Shown piece after piece: positions 32,431-37,536 of a stretch of 64,000 bases of DNA (the stretch's first letter is position 1; every line of letters starts with the position of its first letter). The position numbers were made by a program, and so were the translations under genes. A model generated the notes under the pieces. That model saw only the letters and a list, made by a program, of their open reading frames with translations, made no database searches and had not been told where the DNA came from. The DNA comes from Acidimicrobiaceae bacterium. GTDB lineage: Bacteria; Actinomycetota; Acidimicrobiia; Acidimicrobiales; RAAP-2. The stretch is taken from contig PLZF01000090.1 of assembly GCA_003152015.1 (NCBI GenBank), positions 34,133 through 98,132 on the forward strand. The letters are read 5' to 3'.

Positions 32431-33846
32431 TCACGTTCGAAGGTTCCGATCCTGGTCGGGATCGTCTTTTGGCTCTGCGGCCGGGCCCCACTGGGACTCG
32501 CCCCGATCCCGGACCCGGAGCCCGTCGACCCCCACCAACGATGCAGAACCCACCGAAGCATGGCCATATCGAGCCCGGATGCTGTCCACTGCGGCCGTAA
32601 TTCCACCCCACGACTGTTGAAGGCGCTCAGCCTCCTCTCCTGCCCGGAATATCCGGTCATCGACCTCATCTTGAAGGCCATGGCCGTCGACACCCGCGTG
32701 GAGGACCACACCTTCGGCGCCCCCCAGGTCCAAGGAGAGTTGTTCGTTGGCACCGGTAGCGCCGAAACCGGACAGGCTGACCCCGAGAAGTCGGATCCCC
32801 TGGGAAAGGTCGACAGAGTCGAACAACGCCGTGGCGATCACTCCGATGGACGGCGCCGAGTCGACCGGGGTGACCATCGAATGAGATCGAGTGACCATGG
32901 TGAAGTCACCGAACTTGATCTTGACAGTGATGGTGCGGGCCCCGAGTTCGCTTCCCCGAAGGTGGGATGCAGCCGCATCCACGATCCGGGCCAAGTGGCC
33001 CCGAATGACGTCCGGGTCCCACAAGTCGGATGGGAATGTCTCTTCGTGGCCTATGGATTTCGCTTTCTGGTCGGGGATGACCTGCCGTGCATCCTCACCT
33101 CGGCACAACCCGGCCAGATGTGAGCCCTGCGCCTTTCCGAGATGCCGCTGAAGCGTGGAGGTCGGGAGAGACGCCAGATCACCGACGGTCCGTACTCCCA
33201 GCCCGTTGAGGCGGCGGGCGGACACCGGGCCCACACCCCACAGAGCCTCGATCGCCAATGGGTGGAGGAACTCGAGTTCACGGGCAACCTCGACCACGAC
33301 GATTCCCGGCCCAGGGTGAACACCCGATCGGTCAGCCACCGGTTTGGCCGCTTTCGACGCCAGTTTCGCCAACAGCTTGTTCGATGCCACTCCTACCGAA
33401 CAGGTCAGATGCAAGTCGTTCTGCACACTTCTGCGGATGTCAGCGGCGATGCTCGGGCCATCCCCGAGCAGGCGCACGGACCCCGTCACATCGAGAAACG
33501 CCTCGTCGATGGAGATCCCTTCGACCAACGGCGTCACCGTTTCGAAGATGGCGTGCAGTTTGGCGCTCTCTTCCACGTAACGGTGGTATCGGCCGTGGAC
33601 GAATACGGCCTGCGGACACAGTCGGCGGGCGACCGACGAGGGCATGGCGGAATGGACACCGAACATCCGGGCCTCGTAGGTGCAGGCAGCCACGACACCT
33701 CGGCTGCCGGCGCCCCCCACAATCACCGGGCGTCCGGCCAGAGTCGGATCGTCCAACACTTCCACCGAGGCAAAGAACGCATCCATGTCGACGTGGAGTA
33801 TCACCCGATCAACTGATGGAACCCAGCTCCCCGGGCTGCGCGCCAT
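32431..33846 (-). CDS. dinB: DNA polymerase IV (Y family)
   Basis: 471 residues. MARSPGSWVPSVDRVILHVDMDAFFASVEVL contains the first catalytic carboxylate and steric region; VEGISIDEAFLDVTGSVRLLG holds the catalytic DE pair. HhH residues (PIEALWGVGPVSARRLNGLGVRTVGDLA) and the little-finger domain follow. NEQLSLDLGG near residue 370 is a beta-clamp-binding motif; about 95 extra residues of low-complexity tail come after it. It follows the PIG-L gene by 28 bases in a run headed by the SOS-controlled LysM gene. Confidence 0.93.
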   Translation of the reverse strand: MARSPGSWVPSVDRVILHVDMDAFFASVEVLDDPTLAGRPVIVGGAGSRGVVAACTYEARMFGVHSAMPSSVARRLCPQAVFVHGRYHRYVEESAKLHAIFETVTPLVEGISIDEAFLDVTGSVRLLGDGPSIAADIRRSVQNDLHLTCSVGVASNKLLAKLASKAAKPVADRSGVHPGPGIVVVEVARELEFLHPLAIEALWGVGPVSARRLNGLGVRTVGDLASLPTSTLQRHLGKAQGSHLAGLCRGEDARQVIPDQKAKSIGHEETFPSDLWDPDVIRGHLARIVDAAASHLRGSELGARTITVKIKFGDFTMVTRSHSMVTPVDSAPSIGVIATALFDSVDLSQGIRLLGVSLSGFGATGANEQLSLDLGGAEGVVLHAGVDGHGLQDEVDDRIFRAGEEAERLQQSWGGITAAVDSIRARYGHASVGSASLVGVDGLRVRDRGESQWGPAAEPKDDPDQDRNLRT

Positions 33847-33874
33847 GCCGTCAGGTTGTGGATGGGTCGGGAGG

Positions 33875-34585
33875 TCATCCACCGAGGCGCAGCCTCCGGA
33901 ACCCCTCGGCGAAGCGGACCCCGGCATTCCGGCCGGCATCCTCGGCTGCCCCATGAACCGCAGACCTGGCCCACTCGGCACCGTCGGGGAACTGACTCTG
34001 ATGGCGCCCCACCGCCAGCACCTTCACCTCGACGGTTGCCGAGATATCCACCCAGACGTCGGGTTCGAGTGTGCCCGACATCAGCACAGTGGATACCTGA
34101 TGGGCGGGTCCGGCTTCGGGGAAATACAGGGGTAGCGCCGTCGCCGGGGCCACCGCGTCGAGGACCGCCCATCCGGTGATCCGGTGATCCCGATGATTGA
34201 AATAGTCCTGTCCGAAGAAGACGGCTGTGGGATCGGGGCAGAGAACGACGTCCGGTCGGAGACGACGGATCACCGAGACAAACGCCTGCCGCAAACCGTC
34301 ATCGTCATGGAGCTCCCCATCCAGATAGTGCAGGAACTCCTGGCCGGCCAGCCCGATCAGCGCCGCGGCTTCGCCAGCCTCGACGGCTCGCCTGGTGGCC
34401 AGCTCTCCCGGATCGGCCGAAGGGTCGGTCGATCCTTTGTCCCCATCGGTGCACAGGAGGGTATGGACCTCGCTCCCCTTTGCCGCCCACGCCGCTAGCG
34501 TTCCGCCACAACCCACATCGGGATCGTCGGGATGGGCATAGATGGCGAGCGCCCGGGCGGGAGCATCCTCCAAGAGCTCCGCCAC
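33875..34585 (-). CDS. PIG-L family (LmbE-like) zinc deacetylase
   Basis: 236 residues. The zinc motif AIYAHPDDPDVGCGGTLA near residue 15 and the later NHRDHRITG supply the HxDD and H ligands. The family removes acetyl groups from GlcNAc-type substrates. In Actinobacteria it includes MshB (mycothiol synthesis) and Mca (mycothiol conjugate amidase), but this shorter protein is not clearly either. It starts two bases after nrdR, so the two are probably co-transcribed. Confidence 0.88.
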   Translation of the reverse strand: MAELLEDAPARALAIYAHPDDPDVGCGGTLAAWAAKGSEVHTLLCTDGDKGSTDPSADPGELATRRAVEAGEAAALIGLAGQEFLHYLDGELHDDDGLRQAFVSVIRRLRPDVVLCPDPTAVFFGQDYFNHRDHRITGWAVLDAVAPATALPLYFPEAGPAHQVSTVLMSGTLEPDVWVDISATVEVKVLAVGRHQSQFPDGAEWARSAVHGAAEDAGRNAGVRFAEGFRRLRLGG

Positions 34586-34587
34586 GC

Positions 34588-35061
34588 CTACGACCCGATC
34601 TGCTTGGGGGCAGTGGTCTTGGTCAGGAGCCCGACCTCGCGCCGAAAATCGTCAACACCTTCAAAACCCTTGTACACGCTGGCGAACCGGAGATATGCCA
34701 CCTCGTCCACTAACCTCAGCCGATCAAGCACCGCAAGGCCGATCTGCTCAGTCGTTGGCACAGTGCCATCCTCCCGCAAGGCATCCTCGACAGCTTGCGC
34801 CACCCCTTCGAGCTGTTTCTCAGAGACCGGTCGGTTCTTCGTCGCGGCTCGCAAGCCGTTGATGACCTTCATCCGATCGAATGGTGCACGGAGCCCCGAA
34901 CGCTTCACGACCATCAACGGAACCTCGTCGATTCTCTCGAACGTGGTGTACCGGTGGCCGCACCCGTTGCATTCCCGACGGCGTCTGGTCGCCGCACCGT
35001 CTTCCGCCAACCGAGAGTCGACGACCCGATCATCGTCAGTCAGGCACCAGGGACACAGCAC
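34588..35061 (-). CDS. nrdR: Transcriptional repressor NrdR
   Basis: 157 residues. The N-terminal zinc ribbon is CPWC-x25-CNGCGHRYTTFER; the ATP-cone is VVKRSGLRAPFDRMKVINGLRAA...VEDALREDG. It senses ATP/dATP and represses ribonucleotide reductase operons. No nrd genes are in this window. The start is GTG at 35061; TAGCCT ends six bases upstream, so it may be leaderless. Its position beside lexA and a LysM gene matches the mycobacterial order lexA - Rv2719c - nrdR. Confidence 0.96.
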   Translation of the reverse strand: MLCPWCLTDDDRVVDSRLAEDGAATRRRRECNGCGHRYTTFERIDEVPLMVVKRSGLRAPFDRMKVINGLRAATKNRPVSEKQLEGVAQAVEDALREDGTVPTTEQIGLAVLDRLRLVDEVAYLRFASVYKGFEGVDDFRREVGLLTKTTAPKQIGS

Positions 35062-35175
35062 GCACCGAGGCTAGTGCTGCAACGAACGGCCTCGGGCGAG
35101 TCCAGCGGCGGGGGTAGTTCCTCCATTTTGTCCACATGATTGCCCCCGGGCCGGGCCGGCCCTCCTCGCCGGCGA

Positions 35176-35661
35176 TCAGGGAAGGGCTATCCGCTCGCCA
35201 GGCTCCACGCCGGAAGACCCGGTCTGCGACGCCAATTTCGCCACCATGGGTCGGGGGTCCGCGGAAGGATCCACGGCAACGGCGATGGACCATAGGGAAT
35301 CGCCGGGCTGCACGGTGTACTCAACGGCATGCCCGGCCCCCGCCAGAGCAGAACCGGGGGTGTGGGAGTGATCACCGGTTCCGCCCAGCGGAAGAGCGAG
35401 GCCGATCAGGAAAAGACCGGTGACCGCCAACATCGTGCGCCGAAGCCTGACCGCCTGCGACGTCCGGCGTCGTGTGCGGCACGCCCGTTGCCGATCGGGC
35501 ACGACCACCAGGAACGGGCCCTCGGCAGTCTCCGAGAGCGGCTCGGCACCGCTCATCGGTCGGATGACTTGGTCACCACTCATCAGCCGTAAGGACGCGC
35601 CACCCTGGCGACAACGGCCCCCAGCCCGGGCCAACGGCGATGGCATCGAGAGTGCAGCCAT
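35176..35661 (-). CDS. LysM-domain, SOS-linked cell-wall protein (YneA/ChiZ-like)
   Basis: About 161 residues. A cytoplasmic Arg-rich part is followed by one helix (MLAVTGLFLIGLALPLGG, near 75-92 of this start) and a C-terminal LysM domain (AVEYTVQPGDSLWSIAVAVDPSADPRPMVAKLASQ...LEPGERIALP-like). The position divergent from lexA and upstream of nrdR is that of Rv2719c/ChiZ, a DNA-damage-induced division inhibitor. The N-terminal GGASLRL resembles GGAPLRY in that protein. The track start at 35742 lies inside an SOS box and is rejected; ATG 35661, 35646 or 35583 are possible. Confidence 0.75.
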   Translation of the reverse strand: MAALSMPSPLARAGGRCRQGGASLRLMSGDQVIRPMSGAEPLSETAEGPFLVVVPDRQRACRTRRRTSQAVRLRRTMLAVTGLFLIGLALPLGGTGDHSHTPGSALAGAGHAVEYTVQPGDSLWSIAVAVDPSADPRPMVAKLASQTGSSGVEPGERIALP

Positions 35662-35707
35662 TACCGGCCCGGCCCCATGGCCAGTCCCCGAACCGGATGC
35701 TGTTTCA

Positions 35708-35723
35708 TCGAACGTTTGTTCGT
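35708..35723. promoter_or_regulatory. LexA (SOS) box 1
   Basis: TCGAACGTTTGTTCGT matches the Gram-positive/actinobacterial SOS consensus CGAAC-N4-GTTCG exactly in both half-sites. It lies downstream of the inferred LysM gene promoter. Confidence 0.85.
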
Positions 35724-35732
35724 CATGGCTAT

Positions 35733-35762
35733 ATCGAATCACGAACGTCTGTTCGGTGTCAA
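35733..35762 (-). promoter_or_regulatory. Candidate promoter of the LysM gene
   Basis: Minus strand TTGACA (35762-35757), 18 bases, TTCGAT (35738-35733). The -35 is perfect and the -10 weak. SOS box 2 exactly fills the spacer and box 1 lies just downstream, an ideal repressor arrangement. Confidence 0.5.
35741..35756. promoter_or_regulatory. LexA (SOS) box 2
   Basis: ACGAACGTCTGTTCGG has both perfect half-sites (CGAAC-N4-GTTCG). It occupies the spacer between the candidate -35 and -10 of the LysM gene. Confidence 0.85.
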
Positions 35763-35770
35763 GGCGTTTC

Positions 35771-35786
35771 TCGAACGGATGTTTGC
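35771..35786. promoter_or_regulatory. LexA (SOS) box 3
   Basis: TCGAACGGATGTTTGC has one perfect half-site and one with a single change (GTTTG). It overlaps the -35 of the inferred lexA promoter. Confidence 0.7.
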
Positions 35787-35811
35787 TTTTTGGGATCCCC
35801 TGGGTTACCGT
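35783..35811 (+). promoter_or_regulatory. Candidate lexA promoter
   Basis: TTGCTT (35783-35788), 17 bases, TACCGT (35806-35811). Initiation near 35818 falls in SOS box 4, and box 3 overlaps the -35, consistent with autorepression. The leader would be about 78 bases. Confidence 0.5.
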
Positions 35812-35814
35812 CTT

Positions 35815-35830
35815 ACAAACAGATGTTCGC
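35815..35830. promoter_or_regulatory. LexA (SOS) box 4
   Basis: ACAAACAGATGTTCGC has one perfect half-site (GTTCG) and one single-mismatch half-site (CAAAC). It covers the presumed lexA transcription start. Confidence 0.7.
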
Positions 35831-35895
35831 CGTCACATGCCGCGTCGCCGAGCACACCGAGAGCAGCACTCCGACCGCACAGAGCAGGGGGACCC

Positions 35896-36525
35896 GTGGC
35901 CCAGGTACTGAGCATCAAGCGTAAACAGATACTGGACTGTATTTCGGAATCACTCAGGGACCGCGGGTATCCACCCTCGGTGCGAGAGATCGGCGAGTCG
36001 GTGGGCTTGGCCTCGTCTTCTACGGTCCATGCCCACCTGGCAGTGTTGCAACGCGAGGGGTATCTGAGAAGAGACCCCACCAAACCGAGGGCGATCGAGG
36101 TCCGGTTCGATCCCTCGTCCAAGGTGGTGATGGACTCGCGTCCCATTCGCCACGTTCCCCTCGTCGGTGATGTAGCCGCGGGTACCGGGGTACTCGCACA
36201 AGAGAACATTGAGGAGTTGTATCCGCTCCCCGAGGACTTCACCGGGACGGGATCGCTGTTTATGGTGAAGGTCCATGGCGACTCGATGGTGGATGACGGC
36301 ATTGTGGACGGCGACTTCGTGGTGGTCCGACAGCAACCCGAAGCCGAACGGAACGACATAGTGGTGGCCGGGATACCGGATGGGGAAGCGACGGTGAAGC
36401 GATTCTCCACCCGTGATGGCAAGGTGGTCCTGACCCCGGCCAATCAGCGCCTGACACCCATGGAGTTCGACCCGGCCGAGGTGACCATCTATGGAAAAGT
36501 GGTCACCGTCCTGCGACGCCTGTAA
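35896..36525 (+). CDS. lexA: SOS repressor LexA
   Basis: 209 residues. The winged helix is SIKRKQILDCISESLRDRGYPPSVREIGESVGLASSSTVHAHLAVLQREGYLRRDPTKPRAIEV. The autocleavage site Ala-Gly is in GDVAAGTGVLAQE. The catalytic serine is in VHGDSMVDDGI and the lysine in GEATVKRF. RecA-stimulated self-cleavage lifts repression. The GTG at 35896 follows CAGGGGGA; the longer ORF to 35677 crosses four SOS boxes and is rejected. Confidence 0.97.
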   Translation: MAQVLSIKRKQILDCISESLRDRGYPPSVREIGESVGLASSSTVHAHLAVLQREGYLRRDPTKPRAIEVRFDPSSKVVMDSRPIRHVPLVGDVAAGTGVLAQENIEELYPLPEDFTGTGSLFMVKVHGDSMVDDGIVDGDFVVVRQQPEAERNDIVVAGIPDGEATVKRFSTRDGKVVLTPANQRLTPMEFDPAEVTIYGKVVTVLRRL

Positions 36526-36534
36526 GTCACCGAT

Positions 36535-37536
36535 TCAGAGGTTGGGGCTGGGAACCCCGATCGAGCTCATGTCGGGGTAGCGCTCCCCCGACACAACCCC
36601 TGTCGGAAATACGTCTTCGATGGCCGCCAGGTCCGCCGGTGTGAGTTCGATGGTGAGGGCGGCCACATTCTCGGCAAGATGGGTTCGCCGCTTGGTCCCT
36701 GGGATCGGCACCACGTCCTCACCACGTGATTGGACCCATGCCAGAGCCAGCTGGCCGGGCGTTGCGCCCTTCTGGTTGGCCAGCGAACGGACCCGATTGA
36801 CCAGTTCGATATTGCTGTCGAAGTTCTTCCCGGTGAACCGGGGGAGGTATTTCCGGAAGTCACCTTCGGGAAAGTCATCGGGCGAAGTGATCTGGCCGGT
36901 GAGGAAACCACGACCAAGCGGGCTGTAGGGCACAATCCCGATACCGAGCTCGCGGGCCGTCTCGATGACCCCGCCCTCGACGTCACGGCTCCAGAGAGAC
37001 CATTCGCTCTGCAGGGCGGCGATCGGGTGCACTGCATCGGCGCGTCGCAGCGTGTCGGGTGACGCCTCGGACAAACCGAGATAACCCACCTTTCCCTCCG
37101 CCACCAGTTCAGCCATGGCGCCCACTGTCTCCTCCACCGGCACCGTGCCGTCGGTTCGGTGTTGGTAGTAGAGATCGATATGGTCCACGCCCAATCGGGC
37201 CAGGGAGGCGTCGCACGATTGATGCACATACTCCGCATCACCCCGAATCGACCGATGGGTGGGATCCTCCCCCCGGACAATGCCGAATTTGGTGGCAAGG
37301 ACGACCTCATCGCGTCGGGTGGCAATCGCGCGTCCCACCAGCTCCTCGTTGACATAGGGCCCGTACATATCGGCAGTGTCGAGCAAGGTGACCCCGAGGT
37401 CGAGCGCGGCGTTGATGGTGGCAATCGACTCCGATTCGTCGCCCGGGCCATAGAACTCGCTCATCCCCATGCATCCGAGGCCCTGGGCCGACACCACCAG
37501 TCCGCCGGTGCCCAGTATGCGAGTGGGAATTGCCAT
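36535..37536 (-). CDS. Aldo/keto reductase
   Basis: 333 residues, NADPH-dependent TIM barrel. The N-terminus [12 protein letters not shown], catalytic [19 protein letters not shown] (Asp and Tyr), ATKFGIV with the Lys, and [15 protein letters not shown] with the His are present. [15 protein letters not shown] near the C-terminus is the cofactor loop, here as [15 protein letters not shown]. It is close to the AKR13-like group; the physiological substrate is unknown. It is the last gene of the long minus-strand run and ends 9 bases from the convergent lexA stop. Confidence 0.92.

Follow-up and report, generated by a model that had tools for sequence, protein, structure and literature searches.

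A conserved leader ORF on a LexA operator, predicted to be leaderless and coupled to a candidate LysM division inhibitor gene in Acidimicrobiales

Analysis of a 64,000-nucleotide window from an Acidimicrobiaceae bacterium (draft genome, 3.57 Mb in 114 contigs) revealed four LexA boxes between lexA and a divergently transcribed LysM gene, one of which coincides with the first codons of a short ORF whose stop codon overlaps the LysM start codon. We interpret this arrangement, with a probability of about three in four, as an autoregulated SOS locus in which each promoter has its own pair of boxes and a leaderless, operator-embedded leader ORF is coupled to the LysM gene. The boxes, their conservation, the promoter spacing, the ORF, and the stop/start overlap are read directly from the DNA. 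SOS control of lexA together with a LysM division inhibitor candidate is of a known kind; the conserved coupled leader ORF on the operator is new. Within the open-licence literature, we found neither a LexA-controlled coupled leader ORF nor anything on LexA control in Acidimicrobiia.

Paired LexA boxes at two divergent promoters

The intergenic region contains four sites of the CGAAC-N4-GTTCG type between 35709 and 35829, two perfect and two with a single change, as originally predicted. On the plus strand, these are box 1 (35709-35722; CGAACGTTTGTTCG) and box 2 (35742-35755; CGAACGTCTGTTCG), both perfect; box 3 (35772-35785; CGAACGGATGTTTG), with GTTTG instead of GTTCG; and box 4 (35816-35829; CAAACAGATGTTCG), with one change. 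Sites with up to two mismatches number 67 in the window versus 45 ± 6 in shuffled sequences, and hence single weak LexA-like sites mean little; four sites within 121 nt, none of them with more than one mismatch, are far beyond chance. A pattern search of the 3.57-Mb genome retrieved 14 perfect sites (28 rows over both strands), two of which are boxes 1 and 2, lying 33 nt apart. In the same search, recA, ruvC, and an exonuclease gene each had a perfect box in front of them, evidence that the motif serves as this organism's SOS box; the palindrome is found over the promoters of the core SOS genes lexA, LysM, recA, and ruvC. An Rfam search of positions 34500-37000 gave no match.

The LysM promoter reads on the minus strand and combines a TTGACA -35 element (35757..35762), nearly invariant in relatives, with a predicted -10 element, TTCGAT (35733..35738), for which relatives show a TGnGAT consensus. 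This bears out the proposed TTGACA promoter whose spacer contains box 2, its -35 element being at 35762-35757; TTGAC immediately precedes box 2 in nearly all relatives. Box 2 fills the -35/-10 spacer; box 1 is located downstream of the promoter and inside the leader ORF, which the original prediction had missed. On the other side, lexA (35896..36525, plus strand; GTG start, 209 aa; TIGR00498, 218 bits) has a predicted -35 element, TTGCTT (35783..35788), overlapping box 3 and a -10 element, TACCGT (35806..35811), after a 17-nt spacer that recurs in 68 of 72 family loci. Boxes 3 and 4 accordingly bracket the lexA promoter, as had been claimed, with box 3 on the -35 element and box 4 over the predicted start site. 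The proposed LexA control of the two divergent genes and the proposed promoter geometry are both supported. A simple consensus scan detected neither the LysM nor the lexA promoter and no terminator; both promoters were missed because their -10 elements are weak by Escherichia coli standards.

The sequence of box 3 is itself informative. Its GTTTG end contributes the TTG to the -35 element of lexA, 17 nt before a TAnnnT element, and among loci with that promoter geometry GTTTG is found in 72/72 from the family, 21/21 from genus g3, and 25/28 from other families; GTTCG, though allowed by the scan, was never seen at this position in those loci. Box 3 therefore appears imperfect because GTTTG is forced by the -35 element, and it looks like a fixed operator/promoter compromise rather than a decayed box.

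Loss of the boxes in relatives, a concern raised with the original prediction, was not observed as a general pattern: of 75 distinct family-level loci, 56 retain all four in the roughly 480 nt upstream of lexA. The spacing is 33 or 34 nt between boxes 1 and 2 in most loci and about 42 to 46 nt between boxes 3 and 4. The gap between the two pairs is 28 to 30 nt in the closest relatives and roughly 90 to 170 nt in others, a variability which indicates that the four-box array comprises two neighboring units. Nearly all the loci compared are metagenome-assembled sequences, families are unevenly sampled, and the genome and named-locus sets partly overlap, with duplicates removed by sequence. The window's own LexA is 99 to 100% identical to that of Acidimicrobiales/Acidimicrobiaceae metagenome genomes (isolates Chersky and palsa). 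Multibox clusters at lexA are present in many other Actinomycetota as well. In genus g3 (L143-L165; genomes of about 1 to 3 Mb), lexA is retained with only its own two boxes, and a search for a LysM gene adjoining lexA found none.

The placement of the perfect sites on the LysM side, an asymmetry that is conserved in relatives, had been taken to mean that LexA represses the LysM gene more tightly than lexA itself. This is plausible, with the odds roughly even, and it is compatible with the leader ORF explanation developed below. As tighter repression of the LysM gene would have it, nearly all close relatives have perfect boxes 1 and 2, and box 3 always carries one change. However, the -35 element dictates the change in box 3, many relatives have a perfect box 4, and the four boxes of one array may act together.

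A predicted leader ORF over box 1

The predicted leader ORF (35661..35726, minus strand) consists of 21 codons (MTNKRSMKQHPVRGLAMGPGR) followed by TAA, with the stop codon overlapping the LysM ATG in the form TAATG. Its own ATG (35726-35724) is exactly 4 nt before box 1, and box 1 in the leader frame forms codons 2 to 6, giving M-T/A-N-x-x-S. This ATG follows the predicted -10 element by 6 nt, and base counts across relatives reveal a -10-like hexamer 6 to 7 nt before the ATG or GTG in most loci. In actinobacteria, a spacing of this size between the -10 element and the ATG predicts a leaderless transcript, and the mRNA is accordingly predicted to be leaderless.

A start codon at the same position relative to box 1 is found in 40 of the 55 family-level loci that have both the LysM gene and the box pair, always as ATG or GTG and never as TTG. 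It is missing from the other 15, including genera in which boxes 1 and 2 are 26 to 30 nt apart, and from most other families. A search with the exact pattern of the module gave a single match in each of 30 of the 172 family genomes, representing 12 of 21 genera, and in each of 17 of the 397 genomes of the order, most of them from one other family, whereas the reversed-pattern control gave no matches in either set.

The relationship of this ORF to the LysM gene, which was located along with its start in relatives by motif and open frame, is similarly constrained. In 37 of 55 loci, the leader stop and a LysM start overlap, compared with 4 of 55 for each alternative frame; the overlap is seen in 36 of 40 loci against 9.9 expected with the spacer shuffled, an expectation raised by the fact that the shuffling test accepts any in-frame LysM start. 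The consolidated set takes in every distinct locus that has the module and in which a LysM frame could be detected, 48 in all. Of these, 38 are coupled, 1 is nearly so (adjacent), 8 have the start codon in frame with LysM, and 1 falls elsewhere (frame offsets 39/8/1). The leader ORF is 21 codons long in the window and 12 to 81 in relatives, and mapping of the 38 coupled rows on the LexA tree implies at least 25 changes in length with the overlap retained. Common descent of a single sequence hence offers no explanation for the overlap. Beyond the box, the leader peptide is not conserved; what is conserved is the geometry.

An alternative holds that these are plain divergent SOS promoters, with a Shine-Dalgarno site of its own driving independent translation of the LysM gene and the short ORF being incidental. 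Sequences resembling a Shine-Dalgarno site lie 4 to 16 nt before the LysM start in many relatives, and a start codon at box 1 is lacking in some genera. We nevertheless consider this account improbable, given that 38 of 48 loci have kept the stop/start overlap despite the many length changes, that the departures from overlap largely place the LysM start in frame with the same ATG rather than in a random frame, and that the ATG interchanges with GTG, as a start codon would. That the ATG is instead kept because it belongs to the promoter or to a longer LexA operator fits its fixed distance from both box 1 and the -10 element, but is very improbable, since box 2 and the other boxes have no such ATG, the string RTGNCGAACNNNNGTTCG is unique to the LysM-lexA locus in the window's genome, and the downstream reading frame is constrained too.

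Two further possibilities concern the nature of the short ORF and of its coupling. A sequencing frameshift was dropped as the source of the ORF, as dozens of independent assemblies contain it with differing lengths. RNA structure predicted over the overlap is no stronger than in shuffled sequences (mean z of about 0); coupling by RNA unfolding is not favored, as folding stability does not exceed that of the shuffles.

At loci L032, L127, L234, L236, L239-L241, and L247, the box 1 ATG (or GTG) is in frame with LysM, and there the operator would encode the N terminus of the inhibitor. In L032, the start codon at box 1 is followed by an in-frame repeat (ISPAGL).

The LysM gene and its downstream neighbors

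The LysM gene (35176..35661, minus strand) is divergent from lexA, has LexA boxes in its promoter, and encodes a 161-aa protein with one hydrophobic segment and a C-terminal LysM match, a candidate YneA/ChiZ-type division inhibitor. The Pfam LysM match scores 22.6 bits against a cut-off of 20.9 and covers only profile positions 1 to 16 of 43; inspection of the sequence reveals a single hydrophobic stretch, TMLAVTGLFLIGLALPLGG. We assign the start codon to 35661 and not to 35742, the first start codon of the open frame. Translation from the latter, a GTG, was discarded as a candidate because this codon, at the edge of box 2, would precede the predicted 5' end of the transcript. Since the longest LysM ORF begins at that edge, gene callers may misplace the LysM start.

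The putative SOS operon continues on the minus strand with nrdR (34588..35061), also located downstream in Mycobacterium tuberculosis, a PIG-L/LmbE deacetylase gene (33875..34585), and dinB (DNA polymerase IV; 32431..33813, start uncertain), the last syntenic gene. The order LysM, nrdR, PIG-L, dinB is kept in about 28 of 32 named relatives, the rest having no DNA there or no match. Within the segment corresponding to 32431-35061 of the window, nearly all named relatives have the PIG-L/LmbE gene flanked by nrdR and dinB.

Relationship to known systems

YneA and ChiZ are SOS division inhibitors with a single transmembrane segment and a LysM domain (PMC3989709, PMC13396833), and YneA blocks septal wall synthesis during the SOS response (PMC13396833, PMC3989709). 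The LysM gene described here resembles yneA of Bacillus subtilis and the gene for ChiZ/Rv2719c of M. tuberculosis in its predicted SOS control and in adjoining lexA. Its product has a hydrophobic segment and a partial LysM match where YneA and ChiZ have a single transmembrane segment and a C-terminal LysM. DivS of Corynebacterium glutamicum is a functional counterpart of these inhibitors. Unlike the YneA and ChiZ loci, the present one has an operator-embedded leader ORF predicted to be coupled to the gene, and its putative operon extends into the PIG-L deacetylase gene and dinB.

Mycobacteria commonly have leaderless mRNAs; in these bacteria, leaderless coupled small ORFs are known and stop/start overlaps are overrepresented after small ORFs (Shell et al. 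2015, PMC4633059). Our leader ORF is comparable in that it is short, is predicted to start where the mRNA starts, and has a stop codon that overlaps the following start codon. It differs in that a LexA operator forms its first codons and that it precedes a candidate SOS division inhibitor gene. The mycobacterial overlap is RTGA (PMC4633059); here TAATG and TGATG occur besides RTGA, the window having TAATG. In uPPE2-PPE2 of M. tuberculosis, termination-reinitiation at AUGA has been shown to drive the downstream gene (PMC11260477). That system shares with ours an out-of-frame uORF with a stop/start overlap, but its uORF is Shine-Dalgarno led and gated by a B12 riboswitch (PMC11260477), whereas entry here would be leaderless and LexA gated.

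A proposed mechanism

On the basis of this arrangement, we infer a scheme that takes in LexA binding, the transcription start site, translation, coupling, repression, and division inhibition. LexA on boxes 1 and 2 would block the LysM promoter, and LexA on boxes 3 and 4 would block lexA. Upon DNA damage, RecA-stimulated cleavage would remove LexA, and both promoters would fire. The first nucleotide of the LysM transcript is predicted to be the A of the leader ATG, which stands 4 nt before box 1, yielding a leaderless mRNA, and ribosomes entering at its 5' end would read the box 1 operator as codons 2 to 6. With the leader stop codon on the LysM start codon, termination-reinitiation would then hand ribosomes to the LysM gene, probably aided in many species by the Shine-Dalgarno-like sequence, which is enriched before the coupled LysM start (15 of 36 loci match at least 5 of the 6 positions of AGGAGG, versus about 4% inside the gene). 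Through the short ORF, the N terminus of the inhibitor would escape being encoded by the operator, except in a minority of lineages, in which the operator codons would become that N terminus.

SOS division inhibitors are toxic and need to be tightly set. We tentatively suggest, as somewhat less than an even chance, that the locus forms a two-step gate on the inhibitor, selected across at least two Acidimicrobiales families, in which LexA sets the amount of mRNA, and leaderless initiation together with termination-reinitiation sets the yield per mRNA and could make it stress dependent. The lexA-LysM loci cited above have been treated at the level of the promoter; here, a conserved translational layer appears to be physically joined to the operator. 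The arrangement also indicates how a repressor site can persist downstream of a leaderless start while the N terminus of the protein stays free to vary. Coupling should be simple to test in the LysM gene, as its output should give a visible phenotype, namely, filamentation.

Other perfect boxes in the same genome

A perfect LexA box (CGAACGC-ATG-TTCG) spans the predicted start codon of ruvC (L012:1490-1520; G000:C83, 25960-25973), and TACAGT is found 7 nt upstream; ruvC is probably another leaderless SOS gene with the operator over its start codon. Another perfect box (L006:1495-1514; G000:C35, 68363-68376) is found immediately 5' of a gene for a DEDD-type exonuclease-like protein, recognized by eye from its DVETTGGSP motif, and is followed by TACAGT.
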